Shown here: piece by piece, positions 1 to 63,586 of the stretch
How positions within the stretch are numbered: position 1 is the stretch's first letter
Layout: the number at the start of each line of letters is the position of its first letter
Translations under genes and position numbers: made by a program
Origin: Synaphobranchus kaupii
Lineage: Eukaryota > Chordata > Actinopteri > Anguilliformes > Synaphobranchidae
Assembly: GCA_029718625.1 (NCBI GenBank)
Contig: CM056380.1
Coordinates: forward strand, 19,595,923 to 19,659,922
DNA length: 64,000 bases
Direction of reading: 5' to 3'
Notes under the pieces: model-generated
The model's input: only the letters and a program-made list of their open reading frames with translations
Database searches by the model: none
What the model was told of the DNA's origin: nothing

Positions 1-195
1 TGTTCGCCGAGGTAAAAGGTGGAAACTATCACTGTATTATTCACAATGATGATAATTAAACGTATCCTAATTATGCAGTCGATAATATGCACTCTCGTAA
101 TTGTGCTCCTTTGACCGCGTTGATAAACAGAATTAAGCGGAACCGGCGTTTGAAATTTAGAAACAATTTAACCCGGGTCAGCTCATTTCACCTTT
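1..195. other. Left-edge spacer before first 5S fragment
   Basis: This is the tail of the spacer that follows a 5S gene lying outside the window, matching 1592-1786 of the next unit. It ends in the conserved ~120-bp block found upstream of every 5S copy, including the TATA-like AATTTAA. No gene is seen. Confidence 0.9.
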
Positions 196-232
196 GCTCA
201 CGGCCATCCCACACTGAAAAGGCCCGAACCCG
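196..232 (+). pseudogene. Truncated 5S rRNA, 5' 37 nt (left partial unit)
   Basis: It matches 5S nt 1-37 with three changes (A13C, T26G, T35C). It has the normal 5S upstream block but stops before box A and box C, so it cannot bind TFIIIA or make 5S. The rest of the gene is replaced by the 700-bp block. Confidence 0.88.
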
Positions 233-257
233 AGCTGTATTGTGATAGCGCATTTTC

Positions 258-395
258 AAAACTCAAGTGTCATCGATTGCAGTGCGCATTAGGTGTAAAC
301 GACAATTCGGCAGCTCAGAGCACCTGTCCTCAAGCGATCCGCTAGCCTCAGCCTTTCAGTAGCTTGGATGACAGGCTCACGCCACCGCGCCCAGC
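258..395 (-). ncRNA. SRP Alu-domain-like RNA (left partial unit)
   Basis: First copy in the window of the minus-strand 7SL-like element, described in full at 1849-1986. It has the same sequence, with its CRE at 440-447. Confidence 0.7.
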
Positions 396-518
396 GAAAG
401 CCGAATGGCATTTTATTGCTTTTCTAGAAAGCAGTGTTGTGACGTCAAATAGGCATCAGTCTGATTCTCTGCGCAACGTTCCCTAGAGTGGTAGGCTATA
501 AATAGGCAGAGGAAACAA

Positions 519-536
519 GGTCAACAAGGTCAACAA
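519..536 (+). repeat. GGTCAACAA tandem pair (left partial unit)
   Basis: Two copies of the 9-bp motif, as against one in most units. Confidence 0.9.
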
Positions 537-1038
537 GAAAACAGCAAACATTAGGTCAATCGTTAGCCGACAGCAACGTGAAGTGAAATAAAAATAATAA
601 TAACGGGAGATTTTGCAAAAACAAAGCAGAAACTAAATAAGCCCCTCTTCAGTCTGACCGAAGCTAAACGAAAATCGAAATAAAAATAGAAAAGTAAGTA
701 AAAGCAAACCTACTTAAAATTCAAAGTTATTCTGACAGGTTCGTTAATTTAGCTAAACCAGCAGCCAATCTATGCCTATAAATGAACATTTTGTTGTTAA
801 TATGAGTTCTGTAACTTATTAAATTGAGTTTGCAGGAAAAGATAATTCTGAATAGAAACCGCTTGACGTGCCTTTACGCATGAATCCAAAAACACATAGA
901 TTTTGATTGTACCAAAGAACAAATTCAGATAAGGAAAATGACTAATTATGCAGTCGACAATATGCACTCTCGTTATTGTGCTCCTTTGACCGCGTTGATA
1001 AGCAAAATAAAGCGGAACCGGCGGTTGAAGTTTAGAAA

Positions 1039-1046
1039 TAATTTAA
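1039..1046 (+). promoter_or_regulatory. TATA-like box upstream of 5S (representative)
   Basis: TAATTTAA lies 25-32 bp before the 5S start, inside a block shared by all 5S copies and by the truncated one. Many animal 5S genes have a TATA-like element near -30 that aids TFIIIB placement. The role is inferred; the position and repetition are seen directly. Confidence 0.6.
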
Positions 1047-1070
1047 CCCGGGTCAGCTCCGGTCACCTTC

Positions 1071-1188
1071 GCTCACGGCCATACCACACTGAAAATGCCC
1101 GAACTCGTCTGATCTCGGAAGCCAAGCTGTGTAGGGCTTGGTTAGTACTTGGATGGGAGACCGCCTGGGAATACTAGGTGCTGTAAGC
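1071..1188 (+). rRNA. 5S rRNA, type A (unit 1)
   Basis: 5S ribosomal RNA, part of the large ribosomal subunit and made by Pol III. The ends GCTCACGGC and GCTGTAAGC pair as helix I, with a C4-A115 mismatch. ACACTG (16-21) pairs with CAGTGT (57-62) as helix II. The internal control region is clear: box A at 50-64, intermediate element near 67-72, and box C TGGATGGGAGACCGCCTG at 80-97, matching animal 5S. A TATA-like TAATTTAA lies at -32 to -25. A T-run follows at once; the mature 3' end may extend 1-3 nt into it. Type A is marked by A25, T26, T40, G56 and T68. This copy has A58T, which breaks the T20-A58 pair of helix II, and a T4 rather than T5 stop run, so its activity is less certain. Confidence 0.95.
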
Positions 1189-1431
1189 ATTTTAAAAAGT
1201 TTTGTTTTCCGTTTTCGCACGCGATGGGGCTGTTCGCCGAGGTAAAAGGTGGAAACTATCACTGTATTATTCACAATGATGAAAATTAAACGTCTTCGTA
1301 TCCTAATTATGCAGTGGACAATATTCACTCTCGTAATTTTGCTCCTTTGACCGCGTTGATAAGCAAAATTAAACGGAACCGGCGGTTGACGTTTAGAAAC
1401 AATTTAACCCGGGTCAGCTCAGAGCAACTTC
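1189..1431. other. Spacer between type A and type B 5S (representative)
   Basis: This 243-bp spacer starts with the stop T-run and more T-rich runs and holds a GC-rich CGCACGCGATGGGGCTG stretch. It ends in the ~120-bp block shared upstream of all 5S copies. It differs from the B-to-fragment spacer by an extra 6 bp (CTTCGT) and GTGGACAATATTC in place of GTCGATAATATGC. No gene is seen. Confidence 0.85.
1190..1193 (+). terminator. Pol III stop T-run after 5S (representative, short form)
   Basis: The usual copy has AT5 directly after the 5S end. This one (also units 6 and 11, type A) has T4. Further TTTT runs follow within about 25 bp and could act as back-up stops. Confidence 0.7.
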
Positions 1432-1549
1432 GCTCACGGCCATACCACACTGAAAGAGCCCGAACTCGTCCGATCTCGGAAGCCAAACAGTGTAGGGCCT
1501 GGTTAGTACTTGGATGGAAGACCGCCTGGGAATACTAGGTGCTGTAAGC
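1432..1549 (+). rRNA. 5S rRNA, type B (unit 1)
   Basis: Second 5S rRNA gene of the long unit, 243 bp after type A and on the same strand. It differs from type A at five positions: A25G, T26A, T40C, G56A (inside box A) and T68C. The helices, the TATA-like box at -31 and the stop T-run are as in type A. T40C and T68C bring it closer to common animal 5S (CGTCCGAT, GGGCCTGG), while A56 departs from the usual AAGCAG. This copy also has G87A in box C (position 1518), and a G instead of A right after the gene; both are shared with unit 11. Confidence 0.95.
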
Positions 1550-1786
1550 GTTTTTAAAAGTTTTGTTTTCCGTTTTCGCACGCGATGGGGCTGTTCGCCG
1601 AGGTAAAAGGTGGAAACTATCACTGTATTATTCACAATGATGATAATTAAACGTATCCTAATTATGCAGTCGATAATATGCACTCTCGTAATTGTGCTCC
1701 TTTGACCGCGTTGATAAACAGAATTAAGCGGAACCGGCGTTTGAAATTTAGAAACAATTTAACCCGGGTCAGCTCATTTCACCTTT
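1550..1786. other. Spacer between type B 5S and the truncated 5S (representative)
   Basis: This 237-bp spacer is closely similar to the A-B spacer. It holds the stop T-run, the GC-rich stretch and the conserved 5S upstream block with AATTTAA. No gene is seen. Confidence 0.85.
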
Positions 1787-1823
1787 GCTCACGGCCATCC
1801 CACACTGAAAAGGCCCGAACCCG
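1787..1823 (+). pseudogene. Truncated 5S rRNA, 5' 37 nt (unit 1)
   Basis: The start GCTCACGGCCATCCCACACT and the following CCCGAAC match 5S nt 1-37, with A13C, T26G and T35C. Similarity ends at 1823. The gene's remaining 81 nt and about 114 bp of 3' spacer are replaced by unrelated sequence until 2523, where 5S upstream sequence resumes. All control elements are lost. Every unit carries this break, so it predates the spread of the array. Confidence 0.9.
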
Positions 1824-1848
1824 AGCTGTATTGTGATAGCGCATTTTC

Positions 1849-1986
1849 AAAACTCAAGTGTCATCGATTGCAGTGCGCATTAGGTGTAAACGACAATTCG
1901 GCAGCTCAGAGCACCTGTCCTCAAGCGATCCGCTAGCCTCAGCCTTTCAGTAGCTTGGATGACAGGCTCACGCCACCGCGCCCAGC
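1849..1986 (-). ncRNA. SRP (7SL) Alu-domain-like RNA gene (unit 1)
   Basis: Read on the minus strand from 1986, the first ~50 nt follow the 5' Alu domain of animal SRP RNA: GGGCGCGGTGGCG (helix 3 loop), UGUCA at nt 23-27 (fits UGUNR, the SRP9/14 contact in known SRP RNAs), an AGCU/GGCU hairpin at 32-46, then GGCTGAGG and GGATCGCTTGAG. Nt 107-121 (AATGCGCACTGCAATC) resemble the 3' Alu strand; AUCG (58-61) and UUG can pair with CGAU and CAA (118-124) as helix 5. Only about 25 nt join the two strands, so the S domain is absent. It ends in TTTT (nt 135-138). A good Pol III B box is lacking, as in 7SL genes. It should bind SRP9/14 but not recognise signal peptides. It could instead be a homogenised 7SL-derived SINE. 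Expression is unknown. Confidence 0.72.
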
Positions 1987-2012
1987 GAAAGCCGAATGGC
2001 ATTTTATTGCTT

Positions 2013-2020
2013 TTCTAGAA
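2013..2020 (-). promoter_or_regulatory. Palindromic TTCTAGAA site, 27-34 bp upstream of Alu-domain RNA
   Basis: TTC-TA-GAA is a two-unit heat-shock-element core, and it also sits where a TATA-like element would be expected for a 7SL-type gene. Minus-strand AATAAAAT (2001-2008) is a second TATA-like candidate, rather close at -15 to -22. Which one, if any, is used cannot be told from sequence. Confidence 0.35.
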
Positions 2021-2030
2021 AGCAGTGTTG

Positions 2031-2038
2031 TGACGTCA
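2031..2038 (-). promoter_or_regulatory. CRE palindrome upstream of Alu-domain RNA (representative)
   Basis: TGACGTCA, a perfect ATF/CREB site, lies 45-52 bp upstream of the RNA's inferred 5' end. Vertebrate 7SL genes carry an ATF/CREB-type site at about this distance, needed with internal elements for Pol III transcription. In every copy it starts 45 bp past the RNA's listed end coordinate. Confidence 0.65.
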
Positions 2039-2087
2039 AATAGGCATCAGTCTGATTCTCTGCGCAACGTTCCCTAGAGTGGTAGGC

Positions 2088-2095
2088 TATAAATA
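2088..2095 (+). promoter_or_regulatory. TATAAATA box, plus strand (representative)
   Basis: GGCTATAAATAGGC is a strong TATA match present in every unit, about 100 bp upstream of the Alu-domain RNA start on the opposite strand. Downstream on the plus strand is an A-rich leader-like stretch with no open frame, then the next unit's 5S. It could be a Pol II core promoter remnant, possibly from a heat-shock-type promoter given TTCTAGAA and the CRE nearby, or chance. No product is identified. Confidence 0.35.
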
Positions 2096-2109
2096 GGCAG
2101 AGGAAACAA

Positions 2110-2118
2110 GGTCAACAA
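2110..2118 (+). repeat. GGTCAACAA 9-bp motif, single-copy form
   Basis: This 9-bp motif is present once in most units and twice in tandem at 519-536, 8077-8094, 12832-12849, 16005-16022 and 25140-25157. The tandem form gives the 1591-bp period. It is probably replication slippage spread by unequal exchange. Confidence 0.8.
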
Positions 2119-2652
2119 GAAAACAGCAAACATTAGGTCAATCGTTAGCCGACAGCAACGTGAAGTGAAATAAAAATAATAATAACGGGAGATTTTGCAA
2201 AAACAAAGCAGAAACTAAATAAGCCCCTCCTCAGTCTGACCGAAGCTAAACGAAAATCGAAATAAAAATAGAAAAGTAAGTAAAAGCAAACCTACTTAAA
2301 TTTCAAAGTTATTCTGACAGGTTCGTTAATTTAGCTAAACCAGCAGCCAATCTATGCCTATAAATGAACATTTTGTTGTTAATATGAGTTCTGTAACTTA
2401 TTAAATTGAGTTTGCAGGAAAAGATAATTCTGAATAGAAACCGCTTCACGTGCCTTTACGCATGAATCCAAACACACATAGATTTTGATTGTACCAAAGA
2501 ACAAATTCAGATAAGGAAAATGACTAATTATGCAGTCGACAATATGCACTCTCGTTATTGTGCTCCTTTGACCGCGTTGATAAGCAAAATAAAGCGGAAC
2601 CGGCGGTTGAAGTGTAGAAATAATTTAACCCGGGTCAGCTCCGGTCACCTTC

Positions 2653-2770
2653 GCTCACGGCCATACCACACTGAAAATGCCCGAACTCGTCTGATCTCGG
2701 AAGCCAAGCAGTGTAGGGCTTGGTTAGTACTTGGATGGGAGACCGCCTGGGAATACTAGGTGCTGTAAGC
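2653..2770 (+). rRNA. 5S rRNA, type A (unit 2, short)
   Basis: Consensus type A with a T5 stop. Only 5S gene of a 1221-bp short unit; the type B gene and its spacer are absent. Confidence 0.95.
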
Positions 2771-3007
2771 ATTTTTAAAAGTTTTGTTTTCCGTTTTCGC
2801 ACGCGATGGGGCTGTTCGCCGAGGTAAATGGTGGAAACTATCGCTGTATTATTCACAATGATGATAATTAAACGTATCCTAATTATGCAGTCGATAATAT
2901 GCACTCTCGTAATTGTGCTCCTTTGACCGCGTTGATAAACAGAATTAAGCGGAACCGGCGTTTGAAATTTAGAAACAATTTAACCCGGGTCAGCTCATTT
3001 CACCTTT

Positions 3008-3044
3008 GCTCACGGCCATCCCACACTGAAAAGGCCCGAACCCG
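3008..3044 (+). pseudogene. Truncated 5S rRNA (unit 2)
   Basis: Same 37-nt 5' fragment; here it follows type A directly. The preceding spacer carries two changes (TAAATGG, ATCGCTG) shared only with unit 12. Confidence 0.88.
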
Positions 3045-3069
3045 AGCTGTATTGTGATAGCGCATTTTC

Positions 3070-3207
3070 AAAACTCAAGTGTCATCGATTGCAGTGCGCA
3101 TTAGGTGTAAACGACAATTCGGCAGCTCAGAGCACCTGTCCTCAAGCGATCCGCTAGCCTCAGCCTTTCAGTAGCTTGGATGACAGGCTCACGCCACCGC
3201 GCCCAGC
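3070..3207 (-). ncRNA. SRP Alu-domain-like RNA (unit 2)
   Basis: Consensus copy; CRE at 3252-3259. Confidence 0.7.
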
Positions 3208-3873
3208 GAAAGCCGAATGGCATTTTATTGCTTTTCTAGAAAGCAGTGTTGTGACGTCAAATAGGCATCAGTCTGATTCTCTGCGCAACGTTCCCTAGAG
3301 TGGTAGGCTATAAATAGGCAGAGGAAACAAGGTCAACAAGAAAACAGCAAACATTAGGTCAATCGTTAGCCGACAGCAACGTGAAGTGAAATAAAAATAA
3401 TAATAACGGGAGATTTTGCAAAAACAAAGCAGAAACTAAATAAGCCCCTCTTCAGTCTGACCGAAGCTAAACGAAAATCGAAATAAAAATAGAAAAGTAA
3501 GTAAAAGCAAACCTACTTAAAATTCAAAGTTATTCTGACAGGTTCGTTAATTTAGCTAAACCAGCAGCCAATCTATGCCTATAAATGAACATTTTGTTGT
3601 TAATATGAGTTCTGTAACTTATTAAATTGAGTTTGCAGGAAAAGATAATTCTGAATAGAAACCGCTTGACGTGCCTTTACGCATGAATCCAAAAACACAT
3701 AGATTTTGATTGTACCAAAGAACAAATTCAGATAAGGAAAATGACTAATTATGCAGTCGACAATATGCACTCTCGTTATTGTGCTCCTTTGACCGCGTTG
3801 ATAAGCAAAATAAAGCGGAACCGGCGGTTGAAGTTTAGAAATAATTTAACCCGGGTCAGCTCCGGTCACCTTC

Positions 3874-3991
3874 GCTCACGGCCATACCACACTGAAAATG
3901 CCCGAACTCGTCTGATCTCGGAAGCCAAGCAGTGTAGGGCTTGGTTAGTACTTGGATGGGAGACCGCCTGGGAATACTAGGTGCTGTAAGC
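3874..3991 (+). rRNA. 5S rRNA, type A (unit 3)
   Basis: Consensus type A, T5 stop. Confidence 0.95.
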
Positions 3992-4234
3992 ATTTTTAAA
4001 AGTTTTGTTTTCCGTTTTCGCACGCGATGGGGCTGTTCGCCGAGGTAAAAGGTGGAAACTATCACTGTATTATTCACAATGATGAAAATTAAACGTCTTC
4101 GTATCCTAATTATGCAGTGGACAATATTCACTCTCGTAATTTTGCTCCTTTGACCGCGTTGATAAGCAAAATTAAACGGAACCGGCGGTTGACGTTTAGA
4201 AACAATTTAACCCGGGTCAGCTCAGAGCAACTTC

Positions 4235-4352
4235 GCTCACGGCCATACCACACTGAAAGAGCCCGAACTCGTCCGATCTCGGAAGCCAAACAGTGTAGGG
4301 CCTGGTTAGTACTTGGATGGGAGACCGCCTGGGAATACTAGGTGCTGTAAGC
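4235..4352 (+). rRNA. 5S rRNA, type B (unit 3)
   Basis: Consensus type B with intact box C and T5 stop; a good reference copy for this type. Confidence 0.95.
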
Positions 4353-4589
4353 ATTTTTAAAAGTTTTGTTTTCCGTTTTCGCACGCGATGGGGCTGTTCG
4401 CCGAGGTAAAAGGTGGAAACTATCACTGTATTATTCACAATGATGATAATTAAACGTATCCTAATTATGCAGTCGATAATATGCACTCTCGTAATTGTGC
4501 TCCTTTGACCGCGTTGATAAACAGAATTAAGCGGAACCGGCGTTTGAAATTTAGAAACAATTTAACCCGGGTCAGCTCATTTCACCTTT

Positions 4590-4626
4590 GCTCACGGCCA
4601 TCCCACACTGAAAAGGCCCGAACCCG
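4590..4626 (+). pseudogene. Truncated 5S rRNA (unit 3)
   Basis: Consensus 37-nt fragment. Confidence 0.88.
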
Positions 4627-4651
4627 AGCTGTATTGTGATAGCGCATTTTC

Positions 4652-4789
4652 AAAACTCAAGTGTCATCGATTGCAGTGCGCATTAGGTGTAAACGACAAT
4701 TCGGCAGCTCAGAGCACCTGTCCTCAAGCGATCCGCTAGCCTCAGCCTTTCAGTAGCTTGGATGACAGGCTCACGCCACCGCGCCCAGC
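4652..4789 (-). ncRNA. SRP Alu-domain-like RNA (unit 3)
   Basis: Consensus copy; CRE at 4834-4841. Confidence 0.7.
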
Positions 4790-5455
4790 GAAAGCCGAAT
4801 GGCATTTTATTGCTTTTCTAGAAAGCAGTGTTGTGACGTCAAATAGGCATCAGTCTGATTCTCTGCGCAACGTTCCCTAGAGTGGTAGGCTATAAATAGG
4901 CAGAGGAAACAAGGTCAACAAGAAAACAGCAAACATTAGGTCAATCGTTAGCCGACAGCAACGTGAAGTGAAATAAAAATAATAATAACGGGAGATTTTG
5001 CAAAAACAAAGCAGAAACTAAATAAGCCCCTCTTCAGTCTGACCGAAGCTAAACGAAAATCGAAATAAAAATAGAAAAGTAAGTAAAAGCAAACCTACTT
5101 AAAATTCAAAGTTATTCTGACAGGTTCGTTAATTTAGCTAAACCAGCAGCCAATCTATGCCTATAAATGAACATTTTGTTGTTAATATGAGTTCTGTAAC
5201 TTATTAAATTGAGTTTGCAGGAAAAGATAATTCTGAATAGAAACCGCTTGACGTGCCTTTACGCATGAATCCAAAAACACATAGATTTTGATTGTACCAA
5301 AGAACAAATTCAGATAAGGAAAATGACTAATTATGCAGTCGACAATATGCACTCTCGTTATTGTGCTCCTTTGACCGCGTTGATAAGCAAAATAAAGCGG
5401 AACCGGCGGTTGAAGTGTAGAAATAATTTAACCCGGGTCAGCTCCGGTCACCTTC

Positions 5456-5573
5456 GCTCACGGCCATACCACACTGAAAATGCCCGAACTCGTCTGATCT
5501 CGGAAGCCAAGCAGTGTAGGGCTTGGTTAGTACTTGGATGGGAGACCGCCTGGGAATACTAGGTGCTGTAAGC
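5456..5573 (+). rRNA. 5S rRNA, type A (unit 4)
   Basis: Consensus type A. Position 5496 inside it is where the match to the 15.5-kb-distant duplicate first breaks. Confidence 0.95.
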
Positions 5574-5816
5574 ATTTTTAAAAGTTTTGTTTTCCGTTTT
5601 CGCACGCGATGGGGCTGTTCGCCGAGGTAAAAGGTGGAAACTATCACTGTATTATTCACAATGATGATAATTAAACGTCTTCGTATCCTAATTATGCAGT
5701 GGACAATATTCACTCTCGTAATTTTGCTCCTTTGACCGCGTTGATAAGCAAAATTAAACGGAACCGGCGGTTGACGTTTAGAAACAATTTAACCCGGGTC
5801 AGCTCAGAGCAACTTC

Positions 5817-5934
5817 GCTCACGGCCATACCACACTGAAAGAGCCCGAACTCGTCCGATCTCGGAAGCCAAACAGTGTAGGGCCTGGTTAGTCCTTGGAT
5901 GGGAGACCGCCTGGGAATACTAGGTGCTGTACGC
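5817..5934 (+). rRNA. 5S rRNA, type B (unit 4)
   Basis: Type B with A77C (5893) just before box C and A116C (5932), which disturbs the T3-A116 pair of helix I next to the existing C4-A115 mismatch. It may be a weaker or defective copy. Confidence 0.9.
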
Positions 5935-6171
5935 ATTTTTAAAAGTTTTGTTTTCCGTTTTCGCACGCGATGGGGCTGTTCGCCGAGGTAAAAGGTGGAA
6001 ACTATCACTGTATTATTCACAATGATGATAATTAAACGTATCCTAATTATGCAGTCGATAATATGCACTCTCGTAATTGTGCTCCTTTGACCGCGTTGAT
6101 AAACAGAATTAAGCGGAACCGGCGTTTGAAATTTAGAAACAATTTAACCCGGGTCAGCTCATTTCACCTTT

Positions 6172-56444: not shown

Positions 56445-57100
56445 GAAAGCCGAATGGCATTGTATTGCTTTTCTAGAAAGCAGTGTTGTGACGTCAAATA
56501 GGCATCAGTCTGATTCTCTGCGCAACGTTCCCTAGAGTGGTAGGCTATAAATAGGCAGAGGAAACAAGGTCAACAAGAAAACAGCAAACATTAGGTCAAT
56601 CGTTAGCCGACAGCAACGTGAAGTGAAATAAAAATAATAATAACGGGAGATTTTGCAAAAACAAAGCAGAAACTAAATAAGCCCCTCTTCAGTCTGACCG
56701 AAGCTAAACGAAAATCGAAATAAAAATAGAAAAGTAAGTAAAAGCAAACCTACTTAAAATTCAAAGTTATTCTGACAGGTTCGTTAATTTAGCTAAACCA
56801 GCAGCCAATCTATGCCTATAAATGAACATTTTGTTGTTAATATGAGTTCTGTAACTTATTAAATTGAGTTTGCAGGAAAAGATAATTCTGAATAGAAACC
56901 GCTTGACGTGCCTTTACGCATGAATCCAAAAACACATAGATTTTGATTGTACCAAAGAACAAATTCAGATAAGGAAAATGACTAATTATGCAGTCGACAA
57001 TATGCACTCTCGTTATTGTGCTCCTTTGACCGCGTTGATAAGCAAAATAAAGCGGAACCGGCGGTTGAAGTTTAGAAATAATTTAACCCGGGTCAGCTCC

Positions 57101-57120
57101 GGTCACCTTCGGTCACCTTC
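57101..57120 (+). repeat. GGTCACCTTC 10-bp tandem pair before 5S (unit 38)
   Basis: The 10 bp directly before the type A gene are doubled, moving the TATA-like box from about -30 to about -40. The same occurs in units 39 and 42. Confidence 0.9.
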
Positions 57121-57238
57121 GCTCACGGCCATACCACACTGAAAATGCCCGAACTCGTCTGATCTCGGAAGCCAAGCAGTGTAGGGCTTGGTTAGTACTT
57201 GGATGGGAGACCGCCTGGGAATACTAGGTGCTGTAAGA
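57121..57238 (+). rRNA. 5S rRNA, type A (unit 38)
   Basis: Type A with C118A at the last helix I base (GTAAGAAT) and a 10-bp longer distance to the TATA-like box. Confidence 0.92.
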
Positions 57239-58036: not shown

Positions 58037-58692
58037 GAAAGCCGAATGGCATTTTATTGCTTTTCTAGAAAGCAGTGTTGTGACGTCAAATAGGCATCAG
58101 TCTGATTCTCTGCGCAACGTTCCCTAGAGTGGTAGGCTATAAATAGGCAGAGGAAACAAGGTCAACAAGAAAACAGCAAACATTAGGTCAATCGTTAGCC
58201 GACAGCAACGTGAAGTGAAATAAAAATAATAATAACGGGAGATTTTGCAAAAACAAAGCAGAAACTAAATAAGCCCCTCTTCAGTCTGACCGAAGCTAAA
58301 CGAAAATCGAAATAAAAATAGAAAAGTAAGTAAAAGCAAACCTACTTAAAATTCAAAGTTATTCTGACAGGTTCGTTAATTTAGCTAAACCAGCAGCCAA
58401 TCTATGCCTATAAATGAACATTTTGTTGTTAATATGAGTTCTGTAACTTATTAAATTGAGTTTGCAGGAAAAGATAATTCTGAATAGAAACCGCTTGACG
58501 TGCCTTTACGCATGAATCCAAAAACACATAGATTTTGATTGTACCAAAGAACAAATTCAGATAAGGAAAATGACTAATTATGCAGTCGACAATATGCACT
58601 CTCGTTATTGTGCTCCTTTGACCGCGTTGATAAGCAAAATAAAGCGGAACCGGCGGTTGAAGTTTAGAAATAATTTAACCCGGGTCAGCTCC

Positions 58693-58712
58693 GGTCACCT
58701 TCGGTCACCTTC
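58693..58712 (+). repeat. GGTCACCTTC 10-bp tandem pair before 5S (unit 39)
   Basis: Doubled 10-bp motif as in unit 38. Confidence 0.9.
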
Positions 58713-58830
58713 GCTCACGGCCATACCACACTGAAAATGCCCGAACTCGTCTGATCTCGGAAGCCAAGCAGTGTAGGGCTTGGTTAGTACTTGGATGGGA
58801 GACCGCCTGGGAATACTAGGTGCTGTAAGA
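58713..58830 (+). rRNA. 5S rRNA, type A (unit 39)
   Basis: Type A with C118A and the 10-bp longer TATA spacing. Confidence 0.92.
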
Positions 58831-62792: not shown

Positions 62793-63448
62793 GAAAGCCG
62801 AATGGCATTGTATTGCTTTTCTAGAAAGCAGTGTTGTGACGTCAAATAGGCATCAGTCTGATTCTCTGCGCAACGTTCCCTAGAGTGGTAGGCTATAAAT
62901 AGGCAGAGGAAACAAGGTCAACAAGAAAACAGCAAACATTAGGTCAATCGTTAGCCGACAGCAACGTGAAGTGAAATAAAAATAATAATAACGGGAGATT
63001 TTGCAAAAACAAAGCAGAAACTAAATAAGCCCCTCTTCAGTCTGACCGAAGCTAAACGAAAATCGAAATAAAAATAGAAAAGTAAGTAAAAGCAAACCTA
63101 CTTAAAATTCAAAGTTATTCTGACAGGTTCGTTAATTTAGCTAAACCAGCAGCCAATCTATGCCTATAAATGAACATTTTGTTGTTAATATGAGTTCTGT
63201 AACTTATTAAATTGAGTTTGCAGGAAAAGATAATTCTGAATAGAAACCGCTTGACGTGCCTTTACGCATGAATCCAAAAACACATAGATTTTGATTGTAC
63301 CAAAGAACAAATTCAGATAAGGAAAATGACTAATTATGCAGTCGACAATATGCACTCTCGTTATTGTGCTCCTTTGACCGCGTTGATAAGCAAAATAAAG
63401 CGGAACCGGCGGTTGAAGTTTAGAAATAATTTAACCCGGGTCAGCTCC

Positions 63449-63468
63449 GGTCACCTTCGGTCACCTTC
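63449..63468 (+). repeat. GGTCACCTTC 10-bp tandem pair before 5S (unit 42)
   Basis: Doubled 10-bp motif as in units 38 and 39. Confidence 0.9.
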
Positions 63469-63586
63469 GCTCACGGCCATACCACACTGAAAATGCCCGA
63501 ACTCGTCTGATCTCGGAAGCCAAGCAGTGTAGGGCTTGGTTAGTACTTGGATGGGAGACCGCCTGGGAATACTAGGTGCTGTAAGA
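63469..63586 (+). rRNA. 5S rRNA, type A (unit 42)
   Basis: Type A with C118A and the 10-bp longer TATA spacing. Confidence 0.92.

Follow-up and report, generated by a model that had tools for sequence, protein, structure and literature searches.

A probable SRP RNA pseudogene with retained promoter elements inside the units of a 5S rDNA array

Genes for 5S rRNA occur in linkage with histone, snRNA and spliced-leader genes, and in 1995 Drouin and de Sa reportedly described linkage between 5S genes and further gene families organized in tandem. In the open-licence literature, as covered by titles and the beginnings of abstracts, we found no description of SRP RNA genes, whole or fragmentary, inside a 5S array. 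Among short RNA genes related to 7SL, rodent 4.5SH is described in PMC7279448 and PMC3440375 as 7SL-derived, with boxes A and B, a CRE at about −50, a TATA-like element at about −30 and hundreds of tandem copies. According to the same papers it probably arose via the SINE pB1d10, is expressed, and forms its own repeat of 4–5 kb. Mammalian 7SL genes carry TGACGTCA at −51/−44 and an CTCTAGTA consensus at −31/−24, and the human 7SL-1 gene has the TATA-like element TTCTAGTA at −29/−23 (PMC7279448 and its Table 1). BC200 and scAlu are kin to the SRP RNA Alu domain, and PMC8362101 and PMC8185352 describe BC200 as folding into an SRP9/14-binding Alu domain.

The window studied here, the whole stretch of 64,000 nt from Synaphobranchus kaupii that was analyzed, is included in a 5S rDNA array: an Rfam scan gave 77 plus-strand 5S matches over the gathering score. 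It contains 42 copies of a repeated block and, as the original prediction stated, every one (42/42) carries on the minus strand an SRP-like segment of 138 nt in antisense orientation to 5S. The segment, at 1849–1986 in the block used for coordinates below, is identical in 40 of the 42 blocks, and the remaining 2 differ by one change each. The interval from block to block was 1582 bp in 23 of 41 cases and 1221 bp in 6, the other 12 lying near one of these values. Two full 5S genes follow the block in 35/42 cases and one in 7/42 (the last interval ends at the window end). The gene next after the insert belongs to a first type (2653–2771, plus strand), and the second type of the unit is found at 1432–1550 on the same strand. 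At the insert junction a 5S gene is cut (1787–1826, plus strand), of which BLAST matches 34 nt and position allows at most 40 nt.

The two 5S types were seen in long units, for instance at 1071–1189 and 1432–1550, and in other units; their commonest forms (27/42 and 22/35) differ at nt 25, 26, 40, 56, and 68. A 9-bp duplication (about AAGGTCAAC) at 2104 marks a unit sub-family of 5/42 blocks. At 57091–57126, 58683–58718, and 63439–63474 a 10-bp tandem of GGTCACCTTC in 3.6 copies stands immediately 5′ of a 5S gene.

Matches to the insert and to 5S span contig C5 from 19374410 to 19745159, about 371 kb, with one outlying match of 44 bp at 19364639. From 19.40 to 19.73 Mb, each of 10 sampled stretches contained inserts together with 5S genes, and neither was present in the 6 C5 stretches sampled outside the array. 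The units at both array edges also carry the insert. Extrapolation from 1582 bp per unit, which is not a count, gives about 230 units. Near the right array edge about 5.7 kb (C5:19737784–19743500) is free of matches to the listed 5S, insert and SRP gene queries.

Derivation of the segment from SRP RNA, also part of the original prediction, was borne out. The Rfam metazoan SRP model RF00017 matched 1901–1986 of the minus strand with 36.0 bits (E 1.7e−8), and the fragment comprises SRP RNA nt 1–88 (1899–1986, minus strand), collinear with SRP genes of the same genome. Depending on the stretch used, the element scored 31.2–36.0 bits, as compared with 263–276 bits for the native genes. The covariance-model match that was to be sought for 1849–1986 exists (36.0 bits, or 32.7 bits with the whole segment) but stays below the gathering score of 70 bits; by that score the element is not a member of RF00017, and a gathering-level Rfam scan of the window reports no SRP RNA at the segment. 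Agreement with human 7SL RNA covered 70 of 86 aligned columns. The interval 1830–1893 showed no similarity to human SRP RNA, 190 of 1000 shuffles doing as well. The predicted UGUCA, which we take to fit the UGUNR motif, is present, with both loop-loop pairs (2/2), and so is the TTTT, the first possible Pol III stop, at nt 135–138 (1849–1852, minus strand). The S domain of metazoan SRP RNA is absent, as predicted, and the loss is wider, since everything after nt 88 is gone, with nt 89–299 deleted. Matches to mir-1268, below the cut-off of that family, were set aside as what is presumably an Alu-related echo. Exact patterns of 30 and 37 bases gave 0 matches in viral contigs and in genome contigs, and a pattern of TTTGACGTCAC and TTCTAG in which a wrong spacing was used also gave 0 matches.

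The source genome (1.5 Gb, 94 contigs) was searched for full-length SRP RNA genes, as had been suggested, and holds at least 26. Scoring covered 26 of 25004 first-look candidates; all 26 were full length and over the Rfam cut-off at 263–276 bits, 15 on contig C6 and 11 on C15. The C6 genes are arranged in tandem, the repeat unit measuring about 2153 bp, and the C15 genes in clusters. The C6 donor array has a counterpart in the Hydractinia echinata assembly, from which SRP RNA in tandem is reported (PMC11067881), so such a donor is not new in kind. Stretches between 26.77 and 26.90 Mb showed the C6 array (L012–L020, L023, L024, L043, L044), whereas those at 26.740–26.7435 and 26.755–26.7585 Mb did not. 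Box A is altered in 5 of the 11 C15 genes (L006–L010), to GGCGCATTGG in 2 and to GGCGCGATGG in 3; these are possibly weaker or inactive copies.

Comparison with the C6 unit at L020 identified the insert as a piece of this repeat from which a single internal stretch of about 750 bp has been deleted; it measures 699 bp (1827–2525, minus strand) and recurs in the 42 window copies. Read on the minus strand from 2525 to 1899, the window is collinear with L020 at 90.6% identity over 628–629 bp; the match begins 538 bp 5′ of the SRP gene and reaches SRP nt 88, and the 5′ flank of the gene accounts for about 538 bp of this match (1987–2525). Window positions 1900–1827 then match L020 2338–2411 at 93.2% over 74 bp, about 750 bp further downstream. 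This part (1827–1898) is spacer of the C6 repeat, approximately +838 to +911, fused after the deletion. The deletion join has a CG common to both sides, as read by eye. Both matches were found in all 9 C6 loci compared (88–91% and 92–93%), and with the C15 genes the match to the insert spans at most −52 to +86. On the 5S side of the junctions, a 5S gene is cut after 34–40 nt and 5S spacer starts again at about 2526. Because the insert is a piece of the C6 repeat, an SRP RNA gene was copied at the DNA level, with its cut end lying past box B, and the element is something other than a SINE or an Alu RNA.

The sequence following nt 88 is therefore spacer DNA of the SRP RNA repeat and not SRP RNA, and the "matching 3′ strand" of the original prediction falls within this spacer. 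The claim of such a strand did not hold up. The duplex between the 5′ strand of H5 and the claimed 3′ segment has an energy of −17.3 kcal/mol, and 309 of 500 shuffles give an equally stable duplex or a better one; with human SRP RNA, 1 of 500 shuffles was as good, and the native C6 duplex has −42.0 kcal/mol (energy only, without shuffles). Extending the query with 1849–1900 lowered the RF00017 score from 36.0 to 32.7 bits, the model treating the 3′ end as cut. The fold of the 138-nt RNA has a z of +1.5 relative to shuffles, and 190 of 200 shuffles fold at least as well. A 3′ strand that pairs with nt 48–92 (H5), as in Alu-domain RNAs, is thus lacking. A full-length RF00017 alignment (31.2 bits) places a partly paired 3′ strand, with high posterior values, at 1791–1848, and this stretch pairs somewhat better than shuffles (55/500 as good). 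We rejected it as a candidate: it is mostly antisense of the cut 5S gene, lies beyond the TTTT and adds no score. In the 5′ domain the element retains 6/7 pairs of H3 and 1/4 of H4 besides the loop-loop pairs; the native genes checked (L020 and L005) have 3/4 in H4, so that two of three native pairs are lost. On its own this domain folds at −12.5 kcal/mol versus −19.6 for the human one, in a shape that is not Alu, and it does not keep the 5′ domain of Alu-domain RNAs. Of the proposed Alu domain the 5′ end, nt 1–88, stands, and the rest is absent, with H4 decayed relative to native genes. The proposed likeness to scAlu or BC200 fails for the same reasons, the missing 3′ half of the Alu domain and the decayed H4.

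The promoter elements of the donor gene came along with the insert. On the minus strand, a CRE/ATF site TGACGTCA lies at −52 to −45 (2031–2038) and a TATA-like element TTCTAGAA at −34 to −27 (2013–2020), both within one to three bases of the mammalian 7SL positions given in PMC7279448; the latter compares with the human 7SL-1 element in Table 1 of that source. Box A, GGCGCGGTGG (1973–1982, minus strand), is identical to the human box, and box B, TGCTCTGAGCT (1903–1913, minus strand), agrees by eye at 8/11 positions with human AGTTCTGGGCT, both as quoted in PMC7245038. A CRE within −54..−47 occurred in 12 of 200000 shuffles, and a CRE plus TTCTAG/CTCTAG within −35..−26 in 0 of 200000, with ranges chosen after seeing the sequence. 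Counted over 90 full-length inserts in the window and in further pieces of the array, intact elements numbered 88 for the CRE, 90 for the TATA-like element, 89 for box A, and 88 for box B. The combination of boxes A and B, a CRE near −50 and a TATA-like element near −30 that marks a 4.5SH-like gene is present. The C6 genes shown have TATAAAA near −22, and the insert has AATAAAA there. A reading of TTCTAGAA as a heat-shock element was given up in view of the 7SL TATA-like element described in PMC7279448. The motif TATAAATA at 2088–2095 (plus strand) lies inside the SRP upstream flank, and the C6 flank has the same; downstream of it no RNA family exceeded its cut-off. No tRNA was found in 1–6000 of the window, and 1820–2540 is free of overlap with any ORF longer than 79 aa.

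Since the promoter boxes survive, transcription is possible, and the insert may give rise to a Pol III RNA of about 135 nt. Such an RNA, if made, would probably be short-lived because its ends are unpaired, by comparison with 4.5SH, whose ends are likewise unpaired and whose half-life is about 18 min (PMC3440375). In transfected cells, certain fragments of 7SL interfere with SRP as dominant negatives (PMC3585229), and by this precedent an effect of the RNA is conceivable.

A working RNA should leave its gene part less diverged than the surroundings. Relative to L020 of C6, 10 of 88 positions (11.4%) differ in SRP nt 1–88, 6/52 (11.5%) in the promoter, 39/484 (8.1%) in the distal flank and 5/72 (6.9%) in the downstream spacer, all without a significance test. 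Because nt 1–88 diverge no less than the flank, the RNA part shows no extra conservation. Four of the 10 differences (nt 17, 77, 82, and 83) are positions where the window equals C15, so this share of the divergence belongs to the C6 branch. Six of the 88 SRP positions are private to the window as compared with C6 and the 11 C15 genes, and three of these six changes (window nt 19, 40, and 41) break H3/H4 pairs formed in L020 (C6) and L005 (C15). Within the array, 6 of 192 columns vary in 1849–2040 and 20 of 519 elsewhere, 10 of the latter being indel columns; this variation neither shows nor excludes selection.

We conclude, with a probability of roughly 0.87, that the element is a promoter-bearing SRP RNA pseudogene co-amplified with 5S as a passenger: it is a truncated copy, the whole gene is present in the same genome, and it shows no extra conservation. 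Counted against this are the promoter boxes, intact in nearly all copies, and the 4/10 differing positions that changed on the C6 branch. The same boxes are the main argument for a working short Pol III gene like rodent 4.5SH, making a short-lived RNA: they stand near the expected places and rarely do so in shuffles, within the ranges set post hoc; 88–90 of 90 inserts keep them intact over an array of some 371 kb; and PMC7279448 gives the same plan for 4.5SH. Yet any recent SRP gene copy with its flank would carry the boxes, conservation is not above that of the spacer, and array homogenization accounts for the near-identity of the copies, so such a gene would be an unlikely reading. A captured CRE-bearing SRP promoter that yields a 4.5SH-like RNA, or TFIIIC-binding sites, and thereby ties 5S output to SRP demand is a distinctly unlikely proposal; by extrapolation about 200 copies would create the tie, competing for either SRP proteins or Pol III factors.

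A stand-alone Alu-domain RNA binding SRP9/14 might draw on UGUCA with its loop-loop pairs and on the partly paired strand that RF00017 aligns to 1791–1848. Its claimed 3′ segment is spacer pairing no better than shuffles, however, the alternative strand lies beyond TTTT in what is largely antisense 5S, and the H4 counts and the weak, non-Alu fold of the 5′ domain speak against it as well, making such an RNA very improbable. The dispersed SINE that was named as a refutation of the original prediction fares no better. SINEs derived from 7SL are known in primates, rodents, and hagfish (PMC7245038), but retroposition is contradicted because an RNA copy would carry neither upstream flank nor far-downstream spacer, and the insert contains both, the former reaching 538 bp above the transcription start. 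A SINE1 would be an RNA copy from +1 with a target-site duplication; a duplication at +1 was looked for and not found, and the insert does not look like a SINE. We regard this origin as extremely improbable.

For the passenger pseudogene, we infer the following order of events and manner of spread. A piece of an SRP RNA repeat like those in the present C6 array was copied as DNA into a 5S rDNA repeat, bringing its promoter and about 538 bp of native 5′ flank. Loss of about 750 bp, either before or after insertion, removed SRP nt 89–299 and part of the downstream spacer, and the chimeric 5S unit would then have spread by the recombination that homogenizes rDNA, through unequal exchange or gene conversion. 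Near-identity of the copies follows from array homogenization and needs no selection on the RNA; we infer that the element lacks a function.

The locus offers a clean case in which one tandem RNA gene family gives a promoter-bearing fragment to another, found in all sampled parts of the array, and a natural test of whether many extra SRP RNA promoter copies affect Pol III transcription. It illustrates that array homogenization can make a dead gene appear conserved, and warns that a 5′ Alu-like match plus a TTTT stop does not by itself make an Alu RNA gene.

As in other linked 5S arrays, the unit contains a second gene type, in this case an SRP RNA gene in truncated form. The hagfish Eb-G-5S/EEEb3 repeats likewise have 5S fused to a foreign element and tandemly amplified, whereas their partner is a SINE2 and their 5S is a fragment only (PMC9734144); the window units keep one or two full 5S genes. 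With BC200 and scAlu the element shares kinship to the SRP Alu domain, but it has the 5′ strand only and a damaged H4. The native SRP RNA genes on C6 and C15 (RF00017) have the upstream flank and nt 1–88 in common with it (90.6% to L020 over 628 bp) and are whole, whereas the window copies lack nt 89–299 and run directly into spacer after nt 88. If the element works at all, it would work most like a 4.5SH gene, from which it differs as a direct DNA copy within 5S units. Set beside these systems it is best read as an ordinary passenger at an unusual address, an SRP RNA pseudogene inside 5S units.
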